Both the position numbers and the translations under genes were made by a program. A DNA stretch of 64,000 nucleotides. Source: an uncultured Pirellulaceae bacterium. GTDB lineage: Bacteria; Planctomycetota; Planctomycetia; Pirellulales; Pirellulaceae. The stretch covers positions 62,001 to 126,000 of the forward strand of contig CALKCK010000001.1 of the NCBI GenBank assembly GCA_938083195.1. Direction: 5' to 3'. The first letter of the stretch is position 1. Each line of letters opens with the position of its first letter. Shown piece by piece: positions 1 through 22,950 of this stretch. The notes under the pieces were generated by a model, which had not been told where the DNA came from, searched no databases, and saw only the letters and a list, made by a program, of their open reading frames with translations.

Positions 1-265
1 ATTTTGAACATGGAATTGCCAGTCCGCAAAACGCAAGGAAACTTTGACAGCCCTGGAAGGCTGCTGAAATCTACCTGCCATTTGCCAGTCATGACGGGAT
101 CGAAGAAGTTTAATTATCGAATGGATTATCTTTGCGGCCAAAAAGGGCGACTGGCTAAACCACGTCAGCATTACCGATTAGTCAGGCAAAAGGAAACGCA
201 ACGAATATTCCGCCAACGCACATCCTTCACTCTCCGCACAAGCACCAACGCGTTCTTTCGATCTT
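1..265. other. Intergenic stretch at window edge
   Basis: This stretch lies downstream of the giant surface-protein gene, which ends at 266 on the minus strand. I see no convincing gene: the one open frame on the plus strand has atypical composition and no recognisable motif. I also see no hairpin followed by a T-run that would serve as terminator for the giant gene. The rest of the intergenic region may lie outside the window. Confidence 0.4.
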
Positions 266-3200
266 CTAGTTAAAGAAGCTATCCACTTCATCCTGCTTCT
301 TCACGCCGTCTTTGGAGGTATAACTCTCTAGAACTGGAAGTGGATCAATCATCTGCCAAGATGGTAACTGCGCGAGGGCAAGCGCCATCAGGGCACTTCC
401 TCTTAATGTCCAAAACACATAGCCAAGGGTACCAAGCGTCGTCAGTGCTCCAACGGTCATTTTAATATCCTCTAGGCTTGAATCGTAACGATCCGACTCC
501 TTCAATTGGTCAATGAGATATCCGGTATTCATCGAAATACCCATAATGCTATTCAGCTCTAAATTTCGAATCTCAGATTCTTCTATCACCATTTCTGAGT
601 CGGAGTTTATCAGCAGCATTCGCAGGACATTAGCCGCGCGATTCCGATCTGAAATTAAGCCAACGTACTCTTCAATTTGCTCAGGCACGAATTTCACAAA
701 CTCATCACGACGTGACGCATCGTCTTCTTCTTGCAATGAACGCCTGTCTTTTCTCGCTGCAATCGCACTGGATGCCCCCAGATATTCGTCGTTAATATCA
801 TCCGATTCATCTACCTTGTTTTCGATATTCGCGACTTGATTGAGAGTCGACGTTCCCGCACCTGCTTCCACCGAAATACTTACCGTCGTAGCGACACCAT
901 CTGCGGCGCCATCACTGGGAAGGTAAGAAAAAGTATCGACTCCAAAAAAACCAGCATTAGGTATATAAACAAAGGATCCATTGGGATTCAACAAGACCGT
1001 CCCATTGGCGGGAGGTTCCACCAAAAGTGCAACAATCGAATCGCCCTCGACATCACTATCATTGGCAAGCACGCTCTGAAATGCACTTAACACCCGACCA
1101 GTGGTCGTGGAATACTCATCCACATCTCCCACCGGTGCATCATTTACAGGAGCAACTTGAATTTCAACGTTTGCAATGGAACTTAATAAACTTCCATCAT
1201 CCAATTGATAAGTGAAACTGTCTTCCAGTGTTTCCGAACCGTCATGCGTGTAGACAAAACTTCCATCCGCGTTCAACGCAACCGTGCCGTTAACCGGAGC
1301 ATTCACTAAACGGGCGACAATCTCCGCACTGTCAGGGTCTGAATCATTCCCAAGAAGCTTTCCACCGTTGGCTGTAAAACTTGCCCCCTCGTCAACGGCA
1401 AAGACATCGTCTTGCGCTACCGGTGCATCGTTAACTGGTATAACCGAGATGACAAAAACACCCCCAGTCGCAAGCCCTGTCCCATCATCAACCAGGAACT
1501 CAAAACTATCTGAAAGTGACTCTGAGCCATCGTGCACATAACTGACTCGGTTTTCATTGAGATCCTGTTGGGTGAACTCATTCGCTGTGACACCAGCAAC
1601 TTGCAAGGTTCCTTTTACTGGAGAGTTCACCACGGAATAGACAAGACGGTCGTCCGCCTGCTCTTCATCGACGGTCCGTAGAAACGACGAATCAATTATG
1701 CCAACGCCGCCCTCAGATACAATCAAAACAGAATTCTCAACTAGAATCTGCTCATCGTTTACGTCATTGAGTTCAATCAAGACTTCAGCGGTATCTGCGA
1801 GACCCTCACCATCAACTACCTCAACCAATAAATTTACCATTGGAGTAGTTTCATAATTGAGCAATGCCTGATCCAAAACGATCACTTCGCCTGTCAACGG
1901 ATCGACATCTAGTATGCCAACTCCATTACCACCGGTGACGTGATAGCTCAGCACGTCATCGGCATCGACATCGACCGCAGATAGTAAACCTACGAATGTT
2001 CCATTAATGGAGTTTTCGTCAATTGAAAAACTTTGATTACTCAATTCTGGTGCCTCATTGATGTCGGTCAACGAAACAAAAATCACCTGATCCACAAACA
2101 ATCCCTGAGCATCGGTACTACGAACAACACATTCGTACTGGGCCTTATTCTCAAAATCCAGCAAGACACCTTGAATCAGAAGTTCGTCGCTATTGCCACC
2201 GCCAATCGAGAAATACCCAGCATCCCCTCCTCCAACAACGGAATAGACAAATTGGTCACCAAGATCCTGATCAATACTAGTTAAGACTCCTAAACTAATT
2301 CCCGCCGCAGTGTCAGTATTTTCCTCAATGGAGACTGCATTGGGAATAATTTCCGTTGGAGCGTCGTTTAAGTTTTGCACCGAAATCGAAAACGATTTAT
2401 CAAAGAATTCTCCCGCTTGATCCGCAACCCTCAAAACAACTTCATAACTTGACTGCCGTTCGTAGTCCAGTATCCCGTCTTCCAATATCAACTGGTCTCC
2501 CAACACGCCACCAATTCGAAACAGGCTCTGGTCCAATCCACCAATGACGGCGTAAAGTGGAGCATCATTTAAATCGGGATCATTATTGGATAACTGGCCA
2601 ACGATGTAAGGACCACCAATTACGCTCGGGTCAGTGTCAGTATTCTCATCCACCTCGGAATTACTCAGGACTAATTCAGAAGGGGCGTCATTGAGAGGCA
2701 CAATCTGAACCTCTTGATAAGCTATCTCGGAAGACAGTTCACCATCATTAATCTGATAACTAATCAACCGGTTCGTCGGCGTGGGCGACTCACTTGTATT
2801 TTGATAGGTCACACTTCGTAGCGCCAACTCGTAATTTTCTATCGTGTCAGTACCAGATAGTTGCAACGTTCCAGTGAGAGAATCCCAAGTTCCAAATATT
2901 GATGACACCCCATCATTGATATAATCAAGCCTATCCTCAACGGCTTGATAACTCGAAGAAATGGCGACCGTCGCCGATTCAATCTGAGTATCATCAACAT
3001 CAGAAAGTACAATCGAATCCAATACAGTCACTAGCCCATCGTTTTCCCGGTAAACCAACGGATCCCCGCTACCAGTGGCTATGCCGGGAGCATCATTCAC
3101 CGGAACAACTCCAAGTTGCATGCACTTTACTTCCTCCTCAAGGTTGGCCTCATCAATTGCCCAGGAGAAAACATTGGCTGTGAGAATATCATTTGGGGTT

Positions 3201-6200
3201 GCGACAGTTCCACCGCCGGTCAGATCCGAATAAAAAATCCCAGTATCACCAGTGAACAGAATTTTCCCATCACCGTGTGATCGCAAAACGATCGTCGGAT
3301 TGCCTGAGTTCTGGTCCACAGCCAGGACTTGATCGCCTTCCATTAAACTGCCGGCATCAAAAGACGCAGTAACGGCGTAAGTAGAAAAGGTATCAATATC
3401 TTGGCCAACTGAGCCAAAGGCACCATTCATGATCGGACTGTTTTCATCACTGATAACCCAAGTATTTCCTGCATCTAATGTCGTCAGCCCATAATATTCA
3501 TTTAGGTCATCTGTAGATACTTTCTCACCCGTCGAAATCAGAACACCTCCACTAAGCACCCATTGATCAATGGCATTGAGTTCTGCCGTCGTTAATCGAC
3601 CATCGTCAATCATTCCTCCAAAATATATCTCACCTTGTGATAGATACTCTGCATCGATCGTTGTACTCGGACCACCAATCACAATGGTGGACGAAACAAC
3701 TCCCCCCGGACCGAAGTTTGTTGCCTCAGTCAGAATTGCCTCTGCGTTTGAAAAGAAACTGCTTCCAAGACTCCGGAAACCGGGTTCACCGGCAAGTACA
3801 TTAACTGACAGAACGCCGTTGTTTACAAAAAACTCAAATGAGCCATATAGACTATTGTTGCCATCGGGTTCAGGAATGAATTGTAACCATCCAGCATCGA
3901 TCTGAGTCTTTGAAACAACGTCTCCGCTCGCAAGCGGGGTGCCGTCAAGCAGCAGGGTACCGACCGCAGGCAACGAAGTGATTGTTATTGATTCGATCGT
4001 ATCCCCTACGAAACCAGTGAAGTCAAAATCGATCGAGGAGAATACATACGGCGTATCTTCAAGCGTTGAAACATAACCCTCATTTTGATCTGTTACAAAA
4101 ACATTAATGGCTCCATAGCCTGTATCGACGCCACCATTAGCAACACCGTCGCTGTCAGTTAATTCGAACTCAACAACTCGAATACCAAATTCGGAACTCG
4201 TTGTTGCAAACGAAGCATTGTGTAGCAACATGGCTACGTTGTCAGTTGTCGCCCCTGCATTCAATTGCACAAATATTGAAGATGAACTAACGCCTGTTAG
4301 CTCACCAATCTCGACTCCTTGCACATTAACCAATGAACCTGACGCTAAACCATTGGACAGAGTTACATCGGAGTCTTCTAAAATCCCAATACCGTCTTCG
4401 GCAGTAAAATCAATTCCTTTGATCAGCAAGCTACCGCCATTAAAGTCAGTCGTTAGATCTGGATCATAAATCGACACAGCGACACTGGCATCGAGGATGC
4501 GCGATTCACCATCGTTAAGTGAGACCAGTGAATCGCCAGAAAAATAGTGCATCGCTGGTGCATCATTGGTCGCAATCACGGCGACGCTTCGCGCCTGTGA
4601 ATTAAATTCTGCCTCACCATCAGAGACAGAAAATTGAATCGCCCGAGTCCCAACCTCCGGGCTTTCACTGGTATTCCGAAACTCAACCGCCCTCAACGCC
4701 GTCTGGTAATTATCAACGGTATCAATGCCGCTCAAAGTCAAGATGCCCGCAACACTATCCCAAGAGCCAGAAATATTGCCAACTCCAGAGAACACTAGAT
4801 CGTCAGCATTCGGTGTGTAGTTACTACCAATCCATACGGTAGCAGAATGAAGCTGCTCATTATCAACGTCAGCAAGTACGATCGTTGAACTAACGGATAA
4901 TCCCAGGCTCCCCTCAACAAACACCAAGGGGGTAGTTTCGATTCCAGAAATAAGTGGCCCATCATTAATTGGCAAAATCGATTGGGAAACCGTTTCACTT
5001 CCGACGCTAAATGGACTTAAACCGCCAGTTTCAGCTACACTTACCCCAAGCGTTCCACTAAGTTTGCCATCGGTTTGATCCCACGCATGAAAGACAAAGT
5101 CTCCAGACTGGCCGAAATAATCGGCCGAGGGCACGAATCGAACCAAAGCATTCGCATCCAGAACCAACGCACTTTCAACAGTCACATTTTCGAGGTTGAC
5201 CCAGCCATTTCCAACATCGAACTGCCATTCACCATTCGTCCGATCTGCAGCAACAATTGCGATTCCCTCGACCGCACCCACATCCACATCAGTAATCCTG
5301 TCGCCACCCGCTGAAGCTACTATTTCTCCGACGGTCACGCCTACCGGATCGAGGCCATCCTCGAGCATATCAGGCAAGAACATATCACCAGTATTGTCCA
5401 AGACTGGAGCATTGTTATTGGGCGTAAAATCAATCTCAAGAGTCGGAGCAAAACCGCTCTCGGAACTGTAAAAGCTCACCGTACCGTTTCCCGGCAACGA
5501 ACTACCAAGCAGAACCCCATAATTTGATTTGGCCTCAGTAATCCAATCATCTAACAATTGAGTAACGTCCCAACTGTAAAACAAGCCTGGATCTGAATAC
5601 GCAATCGCCCCAGCATCATAATCAGCACCGGGTGAATCCCAATTAACTCCATCCTCTCGTTCATTCCAGCTTGCCCCCAAAGCAGCAGCCACTTCACCCC
5701 AAGGGTTAGAAACCGAAAACAACTCAACTCCAAAGTTATCTTGAGACTCAAAACTCTTTAAAAGCAACGAAGCCGAGTTAATGGTTACATCATTCGGAAT
5801 TCCTCCCAAATCAAATTCAATCAATGAACGAATGTTTCCATCGCCTCCCCCTGCCTTGGACACTTGAAGGTTCCCCAACGAACCAAACTGTGCATCAGGA
5901 GATCCTTGAACGATATAAGTGTCCTTACCACTGGTAAGCTGGAGATTTTCCAGCGTGTGATTCCACTCCCCTAAAAGCTGTTCCGTAAAAACTAACTGGC
6001 TGGCAATTTGCCCGGTTGAATATTCAAGAGCCCAATTGCCCCCTAGTTCACCATGCCCAGTGAGATCGTCACTAGCTCCAACGTCTCGATTTGTGATTTC
6101 CCCAAGCCTGTCAACAAAATCTTTACCCTCAAAGCCTCCAGCTAAATCACATCCATAGAGCAGAACATCTCCTCCGAACGCCAATCCGGTGGTCCAGCCA

Positions 6201-6793
6201 GACAACTGGCTTTCGTACTCATCTAAATTGCTTGCGTTAACCGCACTGTTTCCTAATAGGAGCTCACCATCGCTACCGTGTGAAATAATGTGGATCGCGT
6301 CGTAGTGCTCCTGTCCAGCAAGAAACGCAGTGATCTGCTCAATTCCATCGGAATCTGATTCTAAAACCGCAATATCAAATACGATGTTGTCAGACTTTTG
6401 CGATCGGATATCGTCAACTAAGGAATCAACGTCACCAACTTGGCTATCAATAACAACTAACTGCCGAGCGCTTGCAGGGGAAGCATCGACATCGTCTTGA
6501 TGGCTCGAAAAATCTTCGTATGGCTCGATGACAGAAGAAACGACGTCAGATTCAAATGCAGCAATGGGAGCCGAATCAAGAGTTACGGTACCAAAGTCCT
6601 CGTCCGCGATTACCGATTCCATTATCTCCTGGGCACAAGCAACCAGCGGCGATGCATCGTATAAAACCCGGTCCTCGAGCACGATCAACTCGAGATTCGA
6701 AACAACAGAATCTTGCTCTCCCGCAGACCGTATTGGCATTGATGGCATGGCGTCAACCGTTTTAAGAAAATCGTTGTGAGTCTTGGTTGTCAT
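266..6793 (-). CDS. Giant DUF4347/DNRLRE/cadherin-VCBS-like surface protein
   Basis: This 2175-residue protein is a probable giant surface adhesin. It starts at ATG 6793 and has no Sec signal peptide; instead residues 39-49 read LEDRVLYDASP, the motif type found near the N-termini of planctomycete giant proteins. Residues about 111-275 match DUF4347, with SHGSDG (His172) and LLYGC (Cys215). Residues about 286-456 resemble a DNRLRE domain. Many Ig-like modules follow, separated by NDAP linkers, with cadherin-like repeats in the middle and VCBS-like modules (DGSFVY, NDSD) near the end. A glutamine-amidotransferase-like segment is inserted at about 1002-1215. The C-terminus has a hydrophobic stretch (about 2111-2147) followed by a DPLPVL motif, suggesting a membrane anchor. 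It is divergent from a TolC/HlyD/M50 operon that may export it. Adhesion and export are inference; the domain calls are by eye. Confidence 0.85.
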   Translation of the reverse strand: MTTKTHNDFLKTVDAMPSMPIRSAGEQDSVVSNLELIVLEDRVLYDASPLVACAQEIMESVIADEDFGTVTLDSAPIAAFESDVVSSVIEPYEDFSSHQDDVDASPASARQLVVIDSQVGDVDSLVDDIRSQKSDNIVFDIAVLESDSDGIEQITAFLAGQEHYDAIHIISHGSDGELLLGNSAVNASNLDEYESQLSGWTTGLAFGGDVLLYGCDLAGGFEGKDFVDRLGEITNRDVGASDDLTGHGELGGNWALEYSTGQIASQLVFTEQLLGEWNHTLENLQLTSGKDTYIVQGSPDAQFGSLGNLQVSKAGGGDGNIRSLIEFDLGGIPNDVTINSASLLLKSFESQDNFGVELFSVSNPWGEVAAALGASWNEREDGVNWDSPGADYDAGAIAYSDPGLFYSWDVTQLLDDWITEAKSNYGVLLGSSLPGNGTVSFYSSESGFAPTLEIDFTPNNNAPVLDNTGDMFLPDMLEDGLDPVGVTVGEIVASAGGDRITDVDVGAVEGIAIVAADRTNGEWQFDVGNGWVNLENVTVESALVLDANALVRFVPSADYFGQSGDFVFHAWDQTDGKLSGTLGVSVAETGGLSPFSVGSETVSQSILPINDGPLISGIETTPLVFVEGSLGLSVSSTIVLADVDNEQLHSATVWIGSNYTPNADDLVFSGVGNISGSWDSVAGILTLSGIDTVDNYQTALRAVEFRNTSESPEVGTRAIQFSVSDGEAEFNSQARSVAVIATNDAPAMHYFSGDSLVSLNDGESRILDASVAVSIYDPDLTTDFNGGSLLIKGIDFTAEDGIGILEDSDVTLSNGLASGSLVNVQGVEIGELTGVSSSSIFVQLNAGATTDNVAMLLHNASFATTSSEFGIRVVEFELTDSDGVANGGVDTGYGAINVFVTDQNEGYVSTLEDTPYVFSSIDFDFTGFVGDTIESITITSLPAVGTLLLDGTPLASGDVVSKTQIDAGWLQFIPEPDGNNSLYGSFEFFVNNGVLSVNVLAGEPGFRSLGSSFFSNAEAILTEATNFGPGGVVSSTIVIGGPSTTIDAEYLSQGEIYFGGMIDDGRLTTAELNAIDQWVLSGGVLISTGEKVSTDDLNEYYGLTTLDAGNTWVISDENSPIMNGAFGSVGQDIDTFSTYAVTASFDAGSLMEGDQVLAVDQNSGNPTIVLRSHGDGKILFTGDTGIFYSDLTGGGTVATPNDILTANVFSWAIDEANLEEEVKCMQLGVVPVNDAPGIATGSGDPLVYRENDGLVTVLDSIVLSDVDDTQIESATVAISSSYQAVEDRLDYINDGVSSIFGTWDSLTGTLQLSGTDTIENYELALRSVTYQNTSESPTPTNRLISYQINDGELSSEIAYQEVQIVPLNDAPSELVLSNSEVDENTDTDPSVIGGPYIVGQLSNNDPDLNDAPLYAVIGGLDQSLFRIGGVLGDQLILEDGILDYERQSSYEVVLRVADQAGEFFDKSFSISVQNLNDAPTEIIPNAVSIEENTDTAAGISLGVLTSIDQDLGDQFVYSVVGGGDAGYFSIGGGNSDELLIQGVLLDFENKAQYECVVRSTDAQGLFVDQVIFVSLTDINEAPELSNQSFSIDENSINGTFVGLLSAVDVDADDVLSYHVTGGNGVGILDVDPLTGEVIVLDQALLNYETTPMVNLLVEVVDGEGLADTAEVLIELNDVNDEQILVENSVLIVSEGGVGIIDSSFLRTVDEEQADDRLVYSVVNSPVKGTLQVAGVTANEFTQQDLNENRVSYVHDGSESLSDSFEFLVDDGTGLATGGVFVISVIPVNDAPVAQDDVFAVDEGASFTANGGKLLGNDSDPDSAEIVARLVNAPVNGTVALNADGSFVYTHDGSETLEDSFTYQLDDGSLLSSIANVEIQVAPVNDAPVGDVDEYSTTTGRVLSAFQSVLANDSDVEGDSIVALLVEPPANGTVLLNPNGSFVYIPNAGFFGVDTFSYLPSDGAADGVATTVSISVEAGAGTSTLNQVANIENKVDESDDINDEYLGASSAIAARKDRRSLQEEDDASRRDEFVKFVPEQIEEYVGLISDRNRAANVLRMLLINSDSEMVIEESEIRNLELNSIMGISMNTGYLIDQLKESDRYDSSLEDIKMTVGALTTLGTLGYVFWTLRGSALMALALAQLPSWQMIDPLPVLESYTSKDGVKKQDEVDSFFN

Positions 6794-7170
6794 CCCATGA
6801 CAGCTACCAAACCCAATTTGCTCAAACTAGACCGGAGTAAAACTGTAGGAATCCGGCAAACAAGGATACATCTTTCGTTTTGGCAAGAGATCACAATTGG
6901 AGAAACAATTCCAAAAACACGTTACAAGCGTAGGAATAGCCCGATTAGCAGGAAACCAACAGCAGCTTACCGTTGCCACTGCCAAAAGGGCTGAGTGTCA
7001 TAGCTTTACAAAATCTGACTTTCGGTTGGAAAGGTATACCGATTATGCGTCTTAAGACGCCGATAGCCTGAATTTCTGGCCGGACTTCGATAAACAGGTT
7101 GGTTAATAATGACGGTTATCAACGAAACATAATAGTAACTGTCGTATGCAATACAACGTTGGAGACTGTT
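6794..7170. promoter_or_regulatory. Divergent promoter region of giant protein and export operon
   Basis: This 377-bp gap separates the start of the giant protein gene (minus) from the chosen start of the TolC-like gene (plus), so it must hold both promoters unless other start sites are used. It contains a perfect 14-bp palindrome at 7047-7060 and an 8-bp palindrome GGTATACC at 7033-7040. I could not pick confident -35/-10 boxes. Confidence 0.5.
7047..7060. promoter_or_regulatory. Perfect 14-bp palindrome, candidate operator
   Basis: The sequence GCGTCTTAAGACGC is a perfect inverted repeat with no spacer, located 111 bp upstream of the TolC-like start and 254 bp upstream of the giant protein start. 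Its position between two divergent, probably co-working transcription units makes an operator for a dimeric regulator plausible. That role is inference. Confidence 0.35.
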
Positions 7171-9483
7171 GTGACGTTTATTCCGAAATGGATACCCAAC
7201 TCTAAATTCTGGCTCACCATCGCCCTGGTTTCGGCGATTGCTGTTGTGAATTTGCATCGCCCCTCAGTTTTAGCACAAGAGACAATCCCGCAAGTACGTA
7301 ACCAACTCAGAGCTGGAAGCAAAACGAAAGCCTTTTTAAATCTAAACGCCAAGCAGATCCAACTTAAGTCTTTACCTCAACTTGCCCCGCCTCAAGAACC
7401 AAAGATTAGAAAACCTACCAATCTCCGCACGAATTCAAATTCGACTTCCGTATTGAACAATGGAAAACGCAACACGTTGAATAGGTTCAAGAATGACTTT
7501 GCTCAGCAATCCAAGATTTCAAGCACAACCGGCAATCTAGACAACACCAAAACACTGGGAACGCCAACCTCTGCAAGCACCGTTTCTACAAAAATAAAAA
7601 ACGGCGATCCCCTACCCAACCTCGCTCCAATCTTCAAAAAGCTACCGGATACTTCTTTCACCCCACCCGCGCCGAGACGAAGAAGTTTCATTATTGGAAA
7701 AAACCGTCCGGTTACCAAAACTCAAGAACAGGATCCGATTGAGCTGAACGATTTTCTCGGTACAGAGAATTCGCTGGCCCGACAGAGCAACCCAGATTCA
7801 ATCGCCGAGGGCAACACCTGGTGGAAATCAAAAGTGATTTCGCCCCTCGTAACCGACGCTACCGAACAGCGGGTTGATACAAACAGTCTCGTCTATGCCA
7901 CCCTTCAAAACTCACCAAGAATTCGGGCGATTAGTCAAAGGCCATTGATTCTCGAACAGCAAATTCTTGAGGCCGAGGCTGACTTCGACCCAATCACGTT
8001 CGTAAGAAGCCAATTCGAGGATCGCGAAGACCCCGTCGGAGATAGTTTATCGATCACCAAAGACAAATCCAGCTTCCTAAAGGATCATACCTGGACGGGT
8101 GATTTCGGCATCCGAAAGAAATTGAAAACCGGAGCTTCTTATGAATTTAGCGAACGCTTAGGTTTTCAAAACAGCAATTCAGCATTCTTTATGCCACAAG
8201 ATCAGGGTACTGCGACACTTGCACTGAATGTAAACCAACCGCTCATGAAAGGGCGTGGCAAATACTACAATGAAAGCCAAATCCTAATTGCGCAAGCAAC
8301 CAGTGGTGCTGCCTGGGATACGTTTACGGCAGAACTTCAAGATGAAATTCAAAAAACCATTTCCGCTTACTGGGAACTTTACTTTGACCGCAGCGTCTAT
8401 CTCCAGAAAAAAAGGAACGTTGCGCGAGGCGAATACATTTTAGAAATACTTGAAGGTCGCGCGGAACTCGATTCCTTGCCAAGCCAAATTACGCGAGCTC
8501 GATCTGCCGTCAAATCACGACAGACCGACCTCGCCAACGCACGACGAGACATCCGGGACTCTCAAACAGAACTAAGACGCCTTACCGCCGATAAAAACTG
8601 GCAAGCTGAACAGACCACCGAAATGTTGCCAACGGAAACTCCCAACACCAGTGGAATCGATATCGAACTAGAGCAGGTCGTTTTTAAAGCGTTGGAAAAT
8701 CGTCCCGAAATCCGAGAAGCAATGGCGCGTGCAAAAGTAAAATGCATTGATCTCAATATCAGCGAAAATGAACTGCTTCCCGAATTATCCCTCTTACTTG
8801 GCACCTACGTTAGTGCACTCAAAGGCGACTCGGCGATTGGGCAGGCGATTGAGGATCAGTTTGGGCAAGTGACTCCAGGGTACTCCGTCGGACTCGAGTT
8901 CAAGATGCCTTATCGAAACCGAGCAGCAAAGAGCCGGGTGACGCAAAGCAAATTAGAGCTTGCAAAAATCCGCGCGGTCGTTGATGAAAAAGTACTCAAC
9001 GTCGTTGCTGAATCTCAAATTTCACTACGTCGCGTAACTTCTGCAAAAGAAACTCTCGATGCCGCTTTGCAGGCAATTGTCGCGGCGAGGGCAGACTTAG
9101 AGCAAAGCTTTCGGCGATGGGATTCATTCGCACTCATCGAAGGTGATTTCGCTGACGGGCAAACCCCAACAACAGCTCTGGATCAATTGCTAGACTCGCA
9201 AGAACGGCTTACCAATGCCGAATTAGTTTACGCCGAGGCGGAATTGGAACTTAAATCGTCAGAGGTTCAACTCCAACGAACCATGGGCACACTGTTAATA
9301 CATGAAAACATTAACTTCAATCAGACAAATTCAAATGGCACGCCTGAATTGAATATCCAACGGCAGGATGACAGCTCATCACAATCGCAGTCCCCTCCAA
9401 TCAAAACGGGAATCCAACAACCCAGTCTACGGACTAAGTTCCTTCCGGCAAAACTTGGATTACCTAATCGCGACGCGAAGTGA
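7171..9483 (+). CDS. TolC-like outer-membrane efflux/secretion protein
   Basis: This is a TolC-family outer-membrane channel protein of 770 residues. I place the start at GTG 7171 because GGAG at 7161-7164 lies six bases upstream and the resulting N-terminus is a good signal peptide (hydrophobic FWLTIALVSAIAVV, cleavage near VLA-QE at residue 35). An earlier in-frame TTG at 7099 has no such support. Residues about 40-210 are low-complexity and rich in Asn, Pro and Thr, unusual for TolC proteins. The rest shows the two long coiled-coil helical repeats of the OEP family, for example DEIQKTISAYWELYFDRS and the later LDAALQAIVAARADLEQS. It heads an operon with two HlyD-type adaptors and an M50-HlyD fusion, so it likely supplies the outer-membrane exit duct. 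Confidence 0.9.
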   Translation: MTFIPKWIPNSKFWLTIALVSAIAVVNLHRPSVLAQETIPQVRNQLRAGSKTKAFLNLNAKQIQLKSLPQLAPPQEPKIRKPTNLRTNSNSTSVLNNGKRNTLNRFKNDFAQQSKISSTTGNLDNTKTLGTPTSASTVSTKIKNGDPLPNLAPIFKKLPDTSFTPPAPRRRSFIIGKNRPVTKTQEQDPIELNDFLGTENSLARQSNPDSIAEGNTWWKSKVISPLVTDATEQRVDTNSLVYATLQNSPRIRAISQRPLILEQQILEAEADFDPITFVRSQFEDREDPVGDSLSITKDKSSFLKDHTWTGDFGIRKKLKTGASYEFSERLGFQNSNSAFFMPQDQGTATLALNVNQPLMKGRGKYYNESQILIAQATSGAAWDTFTAELQDEIQKTISAYWELYFDRSVYLQKKRNVARGEYILEILEGRAELDSLPSQITRARSAVKSRQTDLANARRDIRDSQTELRRLTADKNWQAEQTTEMLPTETPNTSGIDIELEQVVFKALENRPEIREAMARAKVKCIDLNISENELLPELSLLLGTYVSALKGDSAIGQAIEDQFGQVTPGYSVGLEFKMPYRNRAAKSRVTQSKLELAKIRAVVDEKVLNVVAESQISLRRVTSAKETLDAALQAIVAARADLEQSFRRWDSFALIEGDFADGQTPTTALDQLLDSQERLTNAELVYAEAELELKSSEVQLQRTMGTLLIHENINFNQTNSNGTPELNIQRQDDSSSQSQSPPIKTGIQQPSLRTKFLPAKLGLPNRDAK

Positions 9484-9788
9484 AACTGTCAGCCAACATT
9501 CCCTCCGCTCCTTAAAAGCGTCGAGGGATCGAGCCGTTGAGAGCGCGCCGGTTCAGATTTCCCGCGTCGACCCGTTGACTTGAGTTGCTAAAACTCAACG
9601 CCCTACCCGGCAAAATCGGTCGAACCAGAACTCCTCCGTTCCAGTCGTTACCGTTCCAGCGGTTTTGCGGCCTGACCAATGGCGAAGGATTGATTTTCGC
9701 ATCATCTCGACCTCACTCCCCCTGCGATAAGCTACGTTTCCTCGAAATCTGCACCCTTTGGTCACCATTATTTCGAGTCAAACCAACC
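9484..9788. other. 305-bp gap inside the export operon
   Basis: The reading frame of the next gene is open back to 9585, but that upstream part has no plausible start or ribosome site and looks non-coding. A 7-bp inverted repeat TTGAGTT/AACTCAA with a five-base loop sits at 9580-9598. It is not followed by a T-run, so it is not a typical terminator. The long gap may carry a second promoter. Confidence 0.35.
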
Positions 9789-10640
9789 ATGAAACGCAAT
9801 CCACCCTCAGCCATTCAATCCCAGCCACAGTTCTATCGAATCTTTGCAATGGCCGTCACGACACTCTTTTTGAGTCTCATGTCAACAGTGGTGGCTCAGA
9901 CAGACTCAATGGATGCGATTGACGGATTCATTGCTCCCTATCGCAGCATCGAACTGTCAAGTGATGAAGCAGGAGCAATTGCAGAACTGATTGTAGAAGA
10001 AGGGGACGTAATTAAAGCAGGCGGAACCGTTGCAAGACTCGACGACCGAGTCCAGGAATTGCAAGTAGAAATTGCCGAAGAGCTGGCGCAAACGACTAGC
10101 CAACTCATTGCCGCCAATCAATTACTAGAAAAACGAAAAGAGATCTCACGCCGACTCGATGACCTTAAAAAACGAGGACATGCAAGCCAAAGCGAAATCA
10201 TCCGGGCCGAAATGGAACTCTCCATCGCCCAAGCGAAGGTGCTTGCCGCAAAAGAAGAGAAGGCCGTTCGAGAAATTGAACTTCGACGGGCAGAAGTCCA
10301 ATTAGACAGACGAACGATATCTTCCCCCTTTGACGGAATAGTCGCAAAAATCCATCGTCGCGAAGGAGAGTTTCTATCTCCTCTGCACCCAGAGGTCGCA
10401 ACCATCATTCAGGTCAATAAACTTTTGGCCTCTTTTGCAATCATGAGCGATCAACTTAGCGAATTTGAAATTGATAAAGAGTACACGATTCGTTTAGAGA
10501 ATGGTTCGTTAGTCAAGGGAACCGTTTACCGGATCGGCGTTGAGACTGATTCCCAATCCGGAACCGTCGATATCAAATTACTTATTCAAAACCCTACGTT
10601 GAAATTACGCAGTGGCGAGAGCTGTTCACTCAGCTTTTAA
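9789..10640 (+). CDS. HlyD/RND-type periplasmic adaptor protein
   Basis: This 283-residue protein is a membrane-fusion (adaptor) protein that would bridge an inner-membrane component to the TolC-like channel. ATG 9789 is chosen because it gives a signal peptide (FAMAVTTLFLSLMSTVVA-QT). The mature protein has the first half of a lipoyl/barrel-sandwich domain (IAELIVEEGDVIKAGGTVARLDD), a coiled-coil hairpin (about residues 90-170), the second lipoyl half (ISSPFDGIVAKIHRREGEFL) and a short beta-barrel domain. It is shorter than most RND adaptors, which run to 350-400 residues. It lies between the TolC-like gene and the GAF-HlyD gene in the same orientation. Confidence 0.85.
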   Translation: MKRNPPSAIQSQPQFYRIFAMAVTTLFLSLMSTVVAQTDSMDAIDGFIAPYRSIELSSDEAGAIAELIVEEGDVIKAGGTVARLDDRVQELQVEIAEELAQTTSQLIAANQLLEKRKEISRRLDDLKKRGHASQSEIIRAEMELSIAQAKVLAAKEEKAVREIELRRAEVQLDRRTISSPFDGIVAKIHRREGEFLSPLHPEVATIIQVNKLLASFAIMSDQLSEFEIDKEYTIRLENGSLVKGTVYRIGVETDSQSGTVDIKLLIQNPTLKLRSGESCSLSF

Positions 10641-10692
10641 CTCTCTTTTGAGCCCAAAGAAAATTACAAACTAGGACCCAAAAGTTCGCTCA

Positions 10693-12621
10693 ATGAATTC
10701 TCCAATTCTACATTTTGATTTCGCTACCCCCACCCATACGAGGGCGGGTTCGGAATTCCCACGCACTGGCAGTGACGCCCGCAAACCGGACTACTCATTT
10801 TCTGACCAGCGTTTGATGCAGCACTTTGGAGTTGCGATCGCAAGCAGCGACTCAATCGACCAACTATACTCAAACATCAGCCTGATTCTTAAACGTCAAA
10901 CGGACTGTCTCTGCGTTTGGAATGTCCCCAAAAATGGCCAAGGCGAATTTGAGGATCCGCAGCTTCTATCCGACGCGGACGATGATCCACTTTGGCCAAT
11001 TGTCGAGGAACAAGTAAAAGAAATGCTTGCTCGCGTTGCCCGGACCCATCACATTTGTTCTTCTCCCATTCAAACCTCGCCCAATACTACACTCGTCGCA
11101 TCGCCAATTTCGAAGCAAATTAACAAGAAATCAAACAGCGAAATTGACAGTGTCTTGATTGGCTGCTTCGCCGCGAAAACGGACAGTATTTTACGTCTGC
11201 AGTGGTTAACTGGAATCGCATCGGATGCGATCAACCGCTGGCACCAAAAACAGAACTTAAACAACGAAGTAAATAAAAGTCGTTATTTAGGGGATTCAAT
11301 TGGCCTTATTCATTCACTTGATCAAACCCAGTCGGTCTCTGAAGCCATTGTCATCCTCGCTAATCACTTACGGCGTCTTTGTGACGCTGAGCAAGTTTCG
11401 ATCTGCCTGACGGACGAAAGAAACGTTGTTTCACTTCGAGCAATCTCCGATGTTGAGCAAATTGATTTCAATGCCGATTCCAACAAGACGATTCTACACG
11501 CCTGCCAGCAAACGGCTCGACACAATGGCGAAACCTGTTACCCAGACAACGGAAGAACAGGATCCATTGAACAACTTTCACTGCAGAAATACTGTAAAGC
11601 CAATGGTTCTGACGCCTGTATCTGTATCCCATTAATAACGGGCAACGGCCGAAAACTTGGGGTTGTTCTACTCGCTTGCTCGCGTGAAAAAGTAGCCAAC
11701 AAGCACTACCGAACATATTGCAGCAAATTAATCCAAATGACTTCGAGTCACGTTGACGTTGTGATTCGAGCCAACCGAAGTTCAAAAGATATTTTTTCAG
11801 CCGGGCTGAATAAGCTAAAAAACAGTAACAAGACACATGGTTTGATTCTTGCCACCTCGATTCTAATCGCGGTACTACTCATCCCGTTTACCTATCGGGT
11901 TAATTGCGACTGTGAGCTTCAACCGGTATTTAGAAGATTTATCGCAGCACCCCATGACTCGATTCTAGAAAAAACCCTTGTCAAAAGTGGAGATACGATC
12001 GCCGTCGATCAGCAAATCGCTCTTCTCGACGGCAGGAAATTACGCATCGAGCTATCCGGTATTCGCGCTGATTACGACGGCGCGAAAAAAAGACGTGAAT
12101 CCGCATTAGCACTGGGCAACATCGCTGAATCTCAAATCGCCTTGAGCGAAATGAATCGTTTTCAATCCAAAATCGAAATCCTCGAACAGCAACTGACACA
12201 ACTTGTGGTTCGATCTCCCATCCATGGACTCGTTTTAACAGGCGACCTCGAAAAAGCTGAAGGTGCCCCCCTGGAAATGGGCCAAACATTGTTCGAAATA
12301 GCGCCCTTGAACGAAATGGTCGCTGAAATCAACATTCCAGAATCAGAAATTCAATACGTCACGTCCGGAATGCCAGTCGTCTTTAAACTAAATGCTTTTC
12401 CACTAAAAACTTGGTCTGGCAACATAGAACACATTCACCCATGTACAGAAATCGTTGACACCCAAAGCGTATTCGTCGCAAAGGTTCGCCTCCCTAACAC
12501 CGACAACCAATTCCGCCCAGGGATGCAAGGATCCGCGAAGATCGAAACCAAAAAAGCAACACTTGGCTGGAGCCTTTTTCATCGAGGCTGGGAATCCGTA
12601 AGATACTGGATGGTCTGGTAA
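10693..12621 (+). CDS. GAF-domain/HlyD fusion membrane adaptor
   Basis: This 642-residue protein joins a cytoplasmic sensory-like part to a periplasmic adaptor. Residues about 40-200 are an uncharacterised N-terminal region that may hold a first degenerate GAF-like fold. Residues about 210-358 look like a GAF domain (ILANHLRRLCDAEQVSICLTD, CICIPLITGNGRKLGVVLLA). A single membrane segment follows at about 381-402. After it comes a HlyD-type lipoyl/coiled-coil/barrel part (APHDSILEKTLVKSGDTIAV, VVRSPIHGLVLTGDLEKAEG). The gene begins 52 bp after the simple HlyD gene and ends 2 bp before the M50 fusion, so it is operonic. A GAF module on an adaptor suggests that export responds to a cytoplasmic ligand, but this is inference. 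Confidence 0.85.
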   Translation: MNSPILHFDFATPTHTRAGSEFPRTGSDARKPDYSFSDQRLMQHFGVAIASSDSIDQLYSNISLILKRQTDCLCVWNVPKNGQGEFEDPQLLSDADDDPLWPIVEEQVKEMLARVARTHHICSSPIQTSPNTTLVASPISKQINKKSNSEIDSVLIGCFAAKTDSILRLQWLTGIASDAINRWHQKQNLNNEVNKSRYLGDSIGLIHSLDQTQSVSEAIVILANHLRRLCDAEQVSICLTDERNVVSLRAISDVEQIDFNADSNKTILHACQQTARHNGETCYPDNGRTGSIEQLSLQKYCKANGSDACICIPLITGNGRKLGVVLLACSREKVANKHYRTYCSKLIQMTSSHVDVVIRANRSSKDIFSAGLNKLKNSNKTHGLILATSILIAVLLIPFTYRVNCDCELQPVFRRFIAAPHDSILEKTLVKSGDTIAVDQQIALLDGRKLRIELSGIRADYDGAKKRRESALALGNIAESQIALSEMNRFQSKIEILEQQLTQLVVRSPIHGLVLTGDLEKAEGAPLEMGQTLFEIAPLNEMVAEINIPESEIQYVTSGMPVVFKLNAFPLKTWSGNIEHIHPCTEIVDTQSVFVAKVRLPNTDNQFRPGMQGSAKIETKKATLGWSLFHRGWESVRYWMVW

Positions 12622-12623
12622 CC

Positions 12624-14876
12624 ATGAACAGTCCCAATACAGATCCAGAAACACCAGAAATCCCAACAGTATCAACTACGAGTGGGAATTCCCCGTTGGC
12701 AGCAACTCATAATACGGATTCTTGGTTGGATTCAAAACTAACGCTTCGGTCAGAACTCAAATTTGACTCGCGCTGGGAAGGTGAAAATCCAGTTGTTGTC
12801 ATCGAAGACCCCGTTCGAAGCAAGTATTTTCAAATCGGAGAACGAGAATACCGTTTCATTGCTTTAATTGACGGCCAACGAACAGCCCGGGAAATAATCG
12901 ACCTTCTAAACACCTCCGAAGAATCCCAAAACCCAACATTGACTGCCCAACTCGCAATCGAAGTCAGTCAATGGCTGGTACAAACCAATCTAACTTTCGG
13001 CAAAGAGTTTGATAATAGTCAACGACTAAACCTCCAGGCAGGTAAGATCAAACGCCAGAAAATCATGGCTTGGATCAATCCCATCAGTTGCAAGTTTCGA
13101 ATTTTCAATCCGAACCAACTGCTTTCGAAAGTTCAGCCATATTTTCAATGGGTTTTTTCTGTCTGGTTTTTCCTGATTTGGTGCGGGCTCGGAACTTACG
13201 CCTCCGTTCAACTTTACCAACACTGGGATCAATTATCTGTCGCATCCACTGGAATCCTCTCAGGATTTAGCTGGATTTGGCTACTAGTCATCTGGGTCGC
13301 ACTGAAACTCGTGCACGAAACAGCTCATGGAATCGCTTGCCGAAAATATGGCGGAGAAGTTCCCGAAGCAGGCGTCTTGCTTATCCTTTTTACCCCGATG
13401 GCCTACGTCAATGTGACGTCAATGTGGCGATTTACGAATCGTTGGCATCGCATGGCTGTCTCTTCGGCAGGAATGTATGTCGAACTGTTTATTTCCTTCG
13501 TTGCAGTCATTACTTGGACTAAAACAGACGGTGTCACAGGCGATATTGCATTTAATATTTTCATCATGTCTAGCCTGACGACAATCTTATTCAATGCCAA
13601 TCCACTTATGAGATTCGACGGCTACTTTTTACTTTCCGATTTGCTCAATATACCCAACCTCTATAGCAAGGGGGCCAAGTGGTTTGGAGACCGAACGCTG
13701 AGCCTCTTATTCGGACTTCCTAAAACAGAAAATCTCTGCAAACCAAGTGAACGCAAGTCGGTTGCAATTTACGGTTGCCTCGCATTCTTTTGGAAAATCT
13801 CGATCAGCTTGAGCTTGATTATTGGAGCAGGCGTTCTATTGGATGGCGTCGGACTCTTCTTGAGCATTCTCGGTGTAGCTCTTTGGTTCGGCCTTCCAAT
13901 CTATCGAACTCTAAAACCCCTCGTGTCGCTAAACTCACAGCGACCGATCAACCTATTGAGAACAGCCCTGAGCCTATGCATTTTAGTAGGTCTAGGGACA
14001 CTTTTGTTCACCACTTTAAAAGCACCCGCCATTAAATCGGCACCGGCAATTATTCAGTTTTCCAAAGAGACTCTCGTACGTTCTGACGCCGATGGATTTA
14101 TTCAAGCCATTCTTGTTAATGACGGTGACCAGGTTCGGCAAGGCCAAGAGCTACTATCCCTTAAAAACCCACAAATCACTAACGAAGCGAACGAGCTAAC
14201 TCGCTTGATTGAAGAATCTGAAGTTCAATATCGAATCTATCGCAAGCAAGACCAAAGGTCATTAGCACTCGCCGAGCAAACCAAACAAAAAGAATTAAAA
14301 GCGCAGTTGAAAGAAAAAAAAACCGCCGCAAATGGATTGAAAATACGCGCCCCCTTCGACGGTTTTGTTTTCCAACGTGACCTAGCAAGCCAAATAGGCA
14401 GTTTCGTGAATCGAGGCGACGAAATCCTGACCATCGCTCCGTTTAACACAAAAGAGGTGGTTGTTTCGATTGACCAAAGAGATCTTGATTCAATTCACAA
14501 CAACATTGGCAATCCGATAAAAATTATTATGCCAGGCCTTCCCCTTTTTCAGTCTCCACTTTCTCGCGTTAATCCACGGGCGTCGACAATATCGACCCAC
14601 CCGTCACTTTGCGCCCATGCCAACGGCCCACTTCCAGTTAAGCCAATTGCAAGCGGCAATAACGATGTCGGCGATCAAGAATTTGAATTACTCACCCCGC
14701 GGTTCAACGCCTTTATTGAATTGGGGGCAGACCAAAGTTGCCAATTGCACTCAGGACAAAGAGGTCGAGCAATATTTCCAACGGGAGAACAATCTCTCGG
14801 AAGCTACTTTTACATCGCCGCCTCGGAGTGGCTGGAATGCAAAATCAAATTCGCGACTCAGAACGCCGCATTCTAA
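12624..14876 (+). CDS. PqqD-like/M50 metalloprotease/lipoyl-HlyD fusion
   Basis: This 750-residue polytopic membrane protein belongs to the M50 (site-2-protease-like) peptide zinc metalloprotease group fused to an adaptor. Residues about 40-126 resemble a PqqD/RRE-type winged helix (YFQIGEREYRFIALIDGQRT), the fold that binds leader peptides in RiPP pathways. The membrane part carries HETAH (His231, Glu232, His235) and the distal motif NPLMRFDGYF (Asp332), so the zinc ligands and catalytic Glu are intact. About seven membrane segments are visible. The C-terminal third has split lipoyl halves (GFIQAILVNDGDQVRQGQEL and IRAPFDGFVFQRDL) around a coiled coil. It starts 2 bp after the GAF-HlyD gene, so translation is probably coupled. 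It is the best candidate for the inner-membrane core of the export system. Confidence 0.88.
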   Translation: MNSPNTDPETPEIPTVSTTSGNSPLAATHNTDSWLDSKLTLRSELKFDSRWEGENPVVVIEDPVRSKYFQIGEREYRFIALIDGQRTAREIIDLLNTSEESQNPTLTAQLAIEVSQWLVQTNLTFGKEFDNSQRLNLQAGKIKRQKIMAWINPISCKFRIFNPNQLLSKVQPYFQWVFSVWFFLIWCGLGTYASVQLYQHWDQLSVASTGILSGFSWIWLLVIWVALKLVHETAHGIACRKYGGEVPEAGVLLILFTPMAYVNVTSMWRFTNRWHRMAVSSAGMYVELFISFVAVITWTKTDGVTGDIAFNIFIMSSLTTILFNANPLMRFDGYFLLSDLLNIPNLYSKGAKWFGDRTLSLLFGLPKTENLCKPSERKSVAIYGCLAFFWKISISLSLIIGAGVLLDGVGLFLSILGVALWFGLPIYRTLKPLVSLNSQRPINLLRTALSLCILVGLGTLLFTTLKAPAIKSAPAIIQFSKETLVRSDADGFIQAILVNDGDQVRQGQELLSLKNPQITNEANELTRLIEESEVQYRIYRKQDQRSLALAEQTKQKELKAQLKEKKTAANGLKIRAPFDGFVFQRDLASQIGSFVNRGDEILTIAPFNTKEVVVSIDQRDLDSIHNNIGNPIKIIMPGLPLFQSPLSRVNPRASTISTHPSLCAHANGPLPVKPIASGNNDVGDQEFELLTPRFNAFIELGADQSCQLHSGQRGRAIFPTGEQSLGSYFYIAASEWLECKIKFATQNAAF

Positions 14877-22172: not shown

Positions 22173-22895
22173 TCACGCCCCAATGGAATCACCATCCACT
22201 TCATTTACTTGCTTAAGCCGTGCTTGATTCAACTCAAACTGAGCAGAAATAAACACAAAAACCCCGACGAGAATCAATGGATATTGATTCTCCCATAACA
22301 CAAAAATCGAGAACGACAGAGCACTCAATTGCCCCAATCTTGCCGCAATCAGCGTCGCTCTTAAGTACGACATCCGCTTCGCAAGCACACTTCTCAGCAT
22401 CCGCCCCCCATCCATCGGGAAAGCAGGAATCAAGTTGAATAGGAATAGAGCCAGATTGATCCACAGCATGACCACAGGCAACTGACTCATTCCTTCAAAA
22501 CTGAGCGACGGTAATAGAGAACCTCCGGCGAAGCAAACAATCACTCCCAAAAGCACTGCAATCAACAGATTAACTAATGGTCCCGCAAAACTAATTGCGA
22601 ATTCTTGATTTGGTTTTTTCGGCATCCACGCCAACCGAGCTAACCCACCAATCGGCGTGATAATGATATCCTTGGTTGGGACACCAAATCGGCGCGCCAT
22701 CAAAGCGTGCCCCAGCTCATGCAACAACACACAGAAAGAAAGATTCAGCAAAAGAAAAAATAAGACACCGTTCACGAGCCAGGCTTGATCAAAGTCTCGA
22801 GTGCTGTACACGATGTAGAGCGGCGCAAGAAAGTACGTCCAATGCAGGTACACATCAATTCCCGCAAGCCGCATTAGTTTCAAGCGTCTTCCCAC
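22173..22895 (-). CDS. Site-2 protease family M50 membrane metalloprotease
   Basis: This is an intramembrane zinc metalloprotease of about 240 residues. The HELGH zinc motif, the FAGPLVNLLIA segment and the distal NLIPAFPMDGGR motif are all present, so it should be active. Substrates of such proteases are usually anti-sigma factors or signal-peptide remnants. No CBS domain follows, so it is the short form. The start is uncertain: GTG 22895 gives the family-typical GRRLKLMRLAGIDVYLHW beginning, TTG 22907 is the longest option and ATG 22874 the shortest; none has a clear ribosome site. It converges with the polytopic protein gene. Confidence 0.85.
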   Translation of the reverse strand: MGRRLKLMRLAGIDVYLHWTYFLAPLYIVYSTRDFDQAWLVNGVLFFLLLNLSFCVLLHELGHALMARRFGVPTKDIIITPIGGLARLAWMPKKPNQEFAISFAGPLVNLLIAVLLGVIVCFAGGSLLPSLSFEGMSQLPVVMLWINLALFLFNLIPAFPMDGGRMLRSVLAKRMSYLRATLIAARLGQLSALSFSIFVLWENQYPLILVGVFVFISAQFELNQARLKQVNEVDGDSIGA

Positions 22896-22950
22896 AGCAA
22901 AATCCAAATCGAGTCACATGCAATTAAAACCACTGCCTCTCAAATAGCGT

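Follow-up and report, generated by a model that had tools for sequence, protein, structure and literature searches.

An ABC-free M50-HlyD locus divergent from a giant LEPR-type protein in a planctomycete, and its candidate role in export

Genes and proteins of the locus

The DNA analysed here, called the window throughout, is a stretch of 64,000 nucleotides (G000:C1:62001-126000) from the 4.8 Mb genome of an uncultured planctomycete. Near its left end a gene for a giant protein of 2175 residues faces four genes on the opposite strand, which encode a TolC-like channel, a HlyD-like adaptor, a GAF-HlyD protein and an M50-HlyD protein (Table 1); our subject is the possible role of these four in exporting the giant. 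All five genes, their divergent layout and the lack of a Sec signal on the giant, as described in an initial annotation made from the letters alone, were confirmed by the open reading frame list, by Pfam and NCBIfam profile scans and by hydropathy.

Table 1. Features of the locus (window coordinates)
Feature	Position	Strand	Basis or remark
Sensor-signalling gene, 5' end; two hydrophobic segments, PAS, GGDEF, HD	1..92	-	profile scans
Giant LEPR/DUF4347/CBM96/cadherin protein, 2175 aa, proposed cargo	266..6793	-	open reading frame list, profile scans
Conserved C-terminus of the giant, GYVxWxLRG...LPxWxxxDPLPVL, moderately hydrophobic	275..568	-	
DUF4347 domain; HxxSHG and YGC(D) motifs	5951..6460	-	profile match, alignment, predicted fold
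LEDRVLYDASP motif, residues 39-49, LEPR-XLL type, proposed export signal	6647..6679	-	NF012209
Spacer between the diverging giant and TolC genes, 305 bp	6794..7098	.	
TolC-like outer membrane channel (OEP)	7099..9483	+	OEP 5.4e-18; true start maybe further in
HlyD/RND-type periplasmic adaptor	9585..10640	+	RND_mfp 126 bits
GAF-HlyD: N-terminal GAF part, one hydrophobic segment at about residues 379-403, HlyD part	10693..12621	+	
M50-HlyD: small N-terminal domain, HExxH intramembrane metalloprotease part, MacA/MexA-like adaptor part	12624..14876	+	

The four plus-strand genes (7099-14876) are separated by spacers of 101, 52 and 2 bp. HlyD_D23/HlyD_3 profiles match all three adaptors (HlyD-like, GAF-HlyD and M50-HlyD), the GAF match of the second is marginal (22.5 bits against a cut-off of 22.4), and the HlyD-like gene probably starts near 9789, which would give its protein an N-terminus resembling a signal peptide. 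With its TolC, its HlyD-type adaptors and its large repetitive candidate cargo, the locus resembles type I secretion (HlyB-HlyD-TolC), but it differs in having three different adaptors, one of them fused to an M50 protease and another to GAF, in the absence of an RTX family from the giant (none among its nine Pfam families at E ≤ 0.01), and in the absence of an ATP-binding cassette (ABC) ATPase: none of the 47 PF00005 matches in the genome, 41 of them strong, falls within C1:62001-C1:126000, which bears out the initial annotation. The window's HlyD and TolC matches also score under the cut-offs of the type I HlyD and TolC subfamilies. As to resistance-nodulation-division (RND) pumps, the window's open reading frame lists hold no long frame rich in transmembrane segments; no RND model was run.

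The M50-HlyD protein, whose nearest named relatives are in a Planctomycetaceae metagenome-assembled genome (MAG) and in Mariniblastus MAGs, falls short of the general profile for its protease part (Pfam Peptidase_M50, 19.2 against 27.2 bits) and of the NCBIfam daptide M50 model (NF041824, 160.5 bits, cut-off 300). The HExxH motif and a later Asp, which we take to be the catalytic residues of this M50 (site-2) protease, are nonetheless invariant in a 12-row alignment, and over 89 rows H231, E232 and D332 are invariant and H235 nearly so. The structural model (mean predicted local distance difference test score, pLDDT, 90.9) begins with a small N-terminal domain, in which four strands precede an alternation of helices and strands; besides this it has a bundle of long helices, and its adaptor part matches MacA and MexA. 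The initial annotation had called the protein PqqD-M50-HlyD, and the last two parts of that name stand. The first has no direct sequence match: in the N-terminal domain no family is found at E ≤ 1, and PF05402 does not match. An RRE/PqqD-like identity is suggested only by way of relatives, since at least five lower-scoring M50-HlyD paralogues (in G083, G076, G010, G030 and G081) pass the PF05402 cut-off, together with the predicted secondary structure; the same profile also matches in 12 of 14 control genomes, mostly below cut-off. The proteases of daptide and epipeptide pathways (NF041824, NF058609) share a homologous N-terminal domain and M50 part, but the window protein lies below their curated cut-offs and is fused to a MacA/MexA-like adaptor.

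The giant combines DUF4347 (6.6e-52) with CBM96/DNRLRE and cadherin/Big repeats. Its N-terminal LEPR-type motif scores just under the cut-off of NF012209 (16.0 against 17 bits), while that of a second DUF4347/LEPR giant in the same genome (2061 aa; L010:5117-14174 of contig C3) passes at 20.6 bits. Consistent with the hydropathy of the window protein, a 12-residue window reaching 2.0 is found in none of 30 distinct LEPR N-termini, as against 35 of 46 TolC and 46 of 53 HlyD N-termini of the same loci, the stretches taken from these two controls being somewhat longer. Lacking a Sec-like signal, LEPR giants would need another export route.

The DUF4347 domain is predicted with a pLDDT of 92.4, and across a 30-row alignment one His is invariant and one Cys nearly so. 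Foldseek places the type VI secretion effector Tce1 first (9.6e-06, TM-score 0.53), followed by a short-chain dehydrogenase/reductase (4.2e-04), CED-3 (9.5e-04) and legumain (from 1.1e-03); flavodoxin-like and dehydrogenase/reductase-like folds are intermixed among the matches, and most TM-scores are 0.3-0.4. The predicted fold thus appears to have features in common with caspase/legumain-type (clan CD) proteins, and the HxxSHG and YGC motifs suggest a putative self-processing cysteine peptidase.

At its other end the window giant has a C-terminal segment in common with the C3 giant (E 4e-10), for which 18 rows give the consensus GYVxWxxRGG...LPAWxxxDPLPIL. The hydrophobicity of this tail is no more than moderate, its best 19-residue means running from 1.28 to 1.94, so that anchoring in a membrane is a guess. 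By eye, the giants of loci L157, L170, L172, L191 and L272 (some Desulfobacterota-type, Saprospiraceae and Thiotrichales) end in another type of tail, W...Y(E/Q)F, and these loci are without the planctomycete tail and its sensor.

Recurrence of the gene set with giant proteins

The gene set recurs in many genomes, beyond chance. The best 80 M50-HlyD loci from a scan of named genomes, every one with an M50 frame of at least 500 bits, come from Planctomycetota, Verrucomicrobiota, Gammaproteobacteria, Desulfobacterota-type MAGs and one Saprospiraceae MAG. They contain GAF-HlyD in 74 cases, HlyD in 59, TolC in 34, a short SecA in 20, a giant in 38 and an ABC ATPase in two; many lie on short contigs, and among the 39 of at least 18 kb the corresponding numbers are 36, 30, 21, 14, 26 and two. 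We counted as giants all frames of 1300 codons or more, along with LEPR, DUF4347 and C-terminal matches. ABC ATPases, scored with a model built from 16 host-genome sequences, would be expected in about 11 of the 80 loci at the host-genome density of strong matches; of the two cases, that in L135 lies about 7 kb from the M50 gene, and that in L172 adjoins it on the opposite strand beside what looks by eye like a permease.

In two MAGs the set is nearly complete in a single run. A proteobacterial one (L269) has GAF-HlyD, M50, SecA, HlyD and a LEPR/DUF4347 giant in succession, and a verrucomicrobial one (L271) has pieces of TolC beside a run of N, then HlyD, GAF-HlyD, M50 in two frames, SecA and a LEPR giant.

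The tie to giants also holds from genome to genome. Calling an M50-HlyD protein giant-type if it reaches at least 250 bits against that of the window, we find this type, among the matches listed, in 31 of 33 relatives with the giant C-terminus and in 9 of 66 without it (Fisher 2e-15), and outside the window's genus in 12 of 14 against 4 of 57 (1e-8); these p-values are optimistic because the genomes are related and because the 250-bit border was set after the scores had been seen. Among the 70 giant-type matches listed, 17 have a giant C-terminus no more than 30 kb away and 19 a SecA match no more than 8 kb away; for the 80 lower-scoring matches listed the numbers are 4 and 22, and in both groups the contigs are often short. 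On a wider scale, LEPR matches (NF012209, E ≤ 0.1) occur in 19 of 24 M50-HlyD genomes from several phyla, in frames of at least 900 aa in 18 of the 24, and in one of 14 control genomes. Frames of at least 2000 aa hold 52 of the 86 LEPR matches; 12 of the 86, in frames under 900 aa, were excluded from the proximity count given below.

Because the ABC-free four-gene set is physically tied to giants in this way, the giant is a credible cargo. The competing idea is that the M50/HlyD genes export something else, for example a peptide, as in the daptide and epipeptide pathways for ribosomally synthesized and post-translationally modified peptides (RiPPs), and that the giant is co-regulated with them or is a mere neighbour. 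The sub-threshold resemblance of the M50 part to RiPP maturation proteases speaks for it, as do the presence of some M50-HlyD match in 97 of 99 relatives (among the matches listed), the rarity of giant C-termini near the lower-scoring copies, and the long loci that are free of a giant. It is hard to reconcile with the way in which giant-type M50-HlyD tracks the giant across genomes, often adjoining it and in distant phyla too, and it leaves the LEPR giants in need of a route; on balance we give it little credence.

Loci of this kind are not new. Kamneva, Poudel and Ward (2015; PMC4452313) describe, in what their main text says of them, M50, HlyD and GAF-HlyD genes (with or without OEP) around a secondary SecA and without an ABC gene, and propose SecA as the ATPase and M50 as a possible inner-membrane pore. 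The view of the initial annotation that no such system had been described must therefore be dropped, and its central inference, M50 in place of the ABC component, has been in print since 2015. Judged by sequence, the window locus fits the kind described in 2015 except that no SecA is linked to it: it has the M50 protein with its HlyD part, the adjacent GAF-HlyD and no ABC, but its neighbourhood is without a secondary SecA_DEAD protein, a copy of which is found at G000:C25:74605. The main text of that paper names no cargo and has no match to "cadherin", "DUF4347" or "giant", and in the open-licence literature we found no paper joining giants to the M50/HlyD locus or dealing with LEPR-XLL export. 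What would be new here are the LEPR giants as likely cargo, the leader and tail motifs, the sensor downstream and the near-complete MAG runs.

A sensor gene behind the giant

Overlooked in the initial annotation, a sensor-signalling gene lies directly behind the giant, on the same strand and 173 bp past it. The first ATG of its frame is at window position 92, a start at position 11 is possible, and the gene extends beyond the window (L008:13601-16093; C1:59600-62092). The C3 giant is likewise followed by a signalling gene, in this case a hybrid histidine kinase. Its first part and the window sensor are homologues (31% identity over 309 columns, E 4e-42); compared by sequence, the two appear to be the same sensor with an exchanged output.

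Among 99 relatives, 33 genomes hold the 62 matches to the C-terminal profile of the giants; for the sensor profile there are 80 match rows, spread over 41 genomes, and in a few cases two rows are halves of one gene. For 51 of the 62 C-termini a sensor on the same strand begins no more than 1 kb downstream, and a C-terminus lies upstream of 52 of the 80 sensor rows. Ten additional sensors that were scanned include eight with GGDEF (seven of them also with HD) and two hybrid kinases, so that GGDEF is present in 9 of 12 when the window and C3 sensors are counted.

The LapA/LapD/LapG system offers a parallel, in that a giant adhesin on a TolC route has a partner of cyclic di-GMP (c-di-GMP) type at the inner membrane. 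The window sensor differs from it in being a GGDEF-HD protein that scores far under the NCBIfam LapD cut-off (52.8 against 1020 bits), and the end of the giant that we propose to be parked is the C-terminus. Next to the sensor gene lies another (L008:11978-13291) that by eye resembles a receiver/HD protein.

SecA and the proposed export system

Contig C25 carries the two clear SecA genes of the host genome, a canonical one (frame 1233 aa) and a short one (frame 683 aa); one further match in the genome is weak. The short SecA at G000:C25:74605 directly precedes another GAF-HlyD/M50-HlyD pair. In that region (L011:4483-11073) the three genes stand in a row without a giant or TolC and are followed by what by eye is a protein-kinase-like gene; such lower-scoring M50-HlyD copies, which are very common in the order, may serve other cargo.

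In homologous loci the short SecA is often at hand. Besides the 20 of 80 named loci, six of 20 loci taken from relatives, mostly chosen for an M50 gene close to a giant C-terminus, hold it within or at the edge of the gene set; these are five distinct genes, since L072 and L073 share one, and contig ends truncate L074 and L078. Three short SecAs that were scanned (603-674 aa) match SecA_DEAD, SecA_PP_bind and P-loop_SecA by Pfam and fall under every SecA and SecA2 cut-off, and a Walker-A type TGEGKT is conserved in all four that were aligned. In Gram-positive bacteria an accessory SecA2 serves as a second SecA for special surface proteins; the short SecAs here differ both in these scores and in having TolC/HlyD partners. 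Some SecA match occurs in all 99 relatives and, among the matches listed, one of at least 600 bits in 96, in frames all of about 900 aa or less. The exceptions at this level are G049, G069 and G070, and of these G069 nevertheless carries the cut L074 copy.

Taking as short any SecA frame under 840 aa, and excluding two matches below cut-off, we find a LEPR frame of at least 900 aa no more than 6 kb from 6 of the 29 short SecAs, where about 0.24 would be expected, as against none of 23 canonical SecAs (expected 0.12). The latter count says little on function, and it bears on the suggestion that the giant takes an ordinary route, either through SecYEG with canonical SecA reading the unusual leader or through an ABC exporter encoded elsewhere that borrows the adaptors, while M50 only trims. 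Strong ABC ATPase matches are indeed present elsewhere in the host genome (41), in several M50-HlyD genomes canonical SecA is the sole SecA, and a Vibrio giant with LEPR-XLL carries RTX and serralysin parts, according to what its report says of it (PMC10868602). We nevertheless hold this route very unlikely, with ABC genes near the loci no more frequent than chance, a strongly hydrophobic core absent from all 30 LEPR N-termini and canonical SecA never close by.

The initial annotation had taken the locus to be ATPase-less, with the M50-HlyD fusion in place of the ABC component. The ABC-free locus and its tie to giants hold up; "ATPase-less" is not supported as a general rule and is only a local description, because 20 of the 80 loci contain a short SecA and the host genome has one on another contig. 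Export without any SecA, with M50-HlyD, the other adaptors and TolC as the whole conduit and with proton motive force or folding or binding outside as the drive, is the form in which that idea would survive. Consistent with it, the window locus has no ATPase gene, SecA is absent from 43 of the 67 loci with sufficient upstream DNA, and M50-HlyD accompanies LEPR frames of at least 900 aa in six genomes without a short SecA match (Venteria, Thiotrichales, the L157 Desulfobulbaceae, Desulfobulbus, Desulfobacterales and Spartobacteria). On the other hand, the short SecA recurs in homologous loci of Planctomycetota, Verrucomicrobiota and a proteobacterial MAG and beside LEPR giants, its presence in nearly all relatives means that unlinked is not absent, and canonical SecA could serve genomes that have no second one. 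We regard export of this kind as improbable.

The reading that we prefer, by a little over even chances, is that the window holds one copy, without SecA linkage, of an export system that is widespread and free of ABC genes, composed of a short accessory SecA, M50-HlyD, GAF-HlyD, HlyD and TolC, and that its cargo is the LEPR-XLL giants, here the 2175-aa protein. Several observations weigh against it. The window locus itself lacks a SecA, the nearest known copy being on another contig, although some secondary SecAs are unlinked from other genes according to the main text of Kamneva et al. (2015; PMC4452313). There is no giant in 13 of the 39 long loci, and in three gammaproteobacterial loci M50-HlyD stands without adjacent adaptors or TolC. 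Of the 96 relatives with a short-SecA match (among the matches listed), 64 have no giant C-terminus, so the short SecA has other work too. SecA in the locus is scattered on a tree of 88 M50 proteins (24 with, 43 without and 21 without coverage), with 7 changes, at least 6 of them forced; the tree left out M50 matches under 370 bits or 600 residues and loci L008, L010, L073, L080, L123, L127, L134, L143, L146, L147 and L194. No short SecA is found in 9 of 24 genomes picked for M50-HlyD, among them 8 of the 10 from outside the Planctomycetota-Verrucomicrobiota-Chlamydiota (PVC) group. The nine are Venteria, Beggiatoa, Thiotrichales, L157, Desulfocapsa and Desulfobulbus (the last three being Desulfobulbia-type records), a Desulfobacterales MAG, Saprospiraceae and a Spartobacteria MAG, and six of them hold LEPR giants in frames of at least 900 aa. 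Seven non-PVC records and the Spartobacteria MAG have canonical SecA only, two of the seven with a below-cut-off match besides; the Desulfobacterales MAG has no SecA match whatsoever, so incomplete records are among them. The pore could also be SecYEG. The LEPR motif, found as it is on the Vibrio giant with RTX and serralysin parts, is no proof of the M50-HlyD route. As for the sensor, 11 of the 62 C-termini have none adjacent, and 28 of the 80 sensor rows have no C-terminus upstream.

If the preferred reading is right, the inner membrane is where the LEPR leader would be recognised, the small N-terminal domain of M50-HlyD being a possible reader, and the short SecA encoded on C25 would drive threading with ATP. 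M50-HlyD and GAF-HlyD would build the inner-membrane part or act as its gate, the outward conduit would consist of the HlyD parts and TolC, and M50 may clip the leader or the tail. The C-terminus of the giant would be the last to leave and would go no further than the inner membrane, where it would adjoin the partner sensor. The output domains of that sensor are of the kind that makes or degrades c-di-GMP or, in the C3 pair, phosphorylates. That all of this makes up one dedicated secretion-and-signalling machine is a more tentative proposal, and as a whole less likely than not: in it the N-terminal domain of M50-HlyD would read the leader, the short SecA would be the motor, M50 would replace the ABC membrane part, and the tail of the giant would sit in the inner membrane against its cognate sensor, so that binding outside or completion of export is passed to c-di-GMP or a phosphorelay.

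Planctomycetota are notably prone to encoding huge proteins (PMC11573180). With giants tied to a SecA/M50/HlyD locus of unknown function, the locus described in 2015 gains a cargo that can be tested, and the giants gain an exporter open to test as well. Paired with the sensor, the giant would be a receptor, and not passive glue, linking surface contact to c-di-GMP, and a SecA-type ATPase that works together with TolC-type conduits would, if true, stand in its mechanism between Sec and type I secretion.

Some further genes deserve mention. Two more LEPR-type large proteins of the host genome, at G000:C9:295606 and G000:C4:238065 (L275 and L276), are possible extra cargo; the 20 kb fetched around each have no exporter or sensor match. 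Within the window, a small gene at 22173-22907 (-) resembles by eye an HExxH membrane protease and has no apparent tie to the locus. Just upstream of GAF-HlyD, a small DUF3467-type gene is found at L157:7771-8109, L172:7527-7895, L176:8443-8832 and L079:19153-19509, the first three above cut-off and that of L079 below; it is a possible component that the window locus does not have. Directly behind M50-HlyD in the Desulfobulbaceae MAG lies a YdbH-like gene (L157:12142-14625), and a frame of like size follows M50 in L170.

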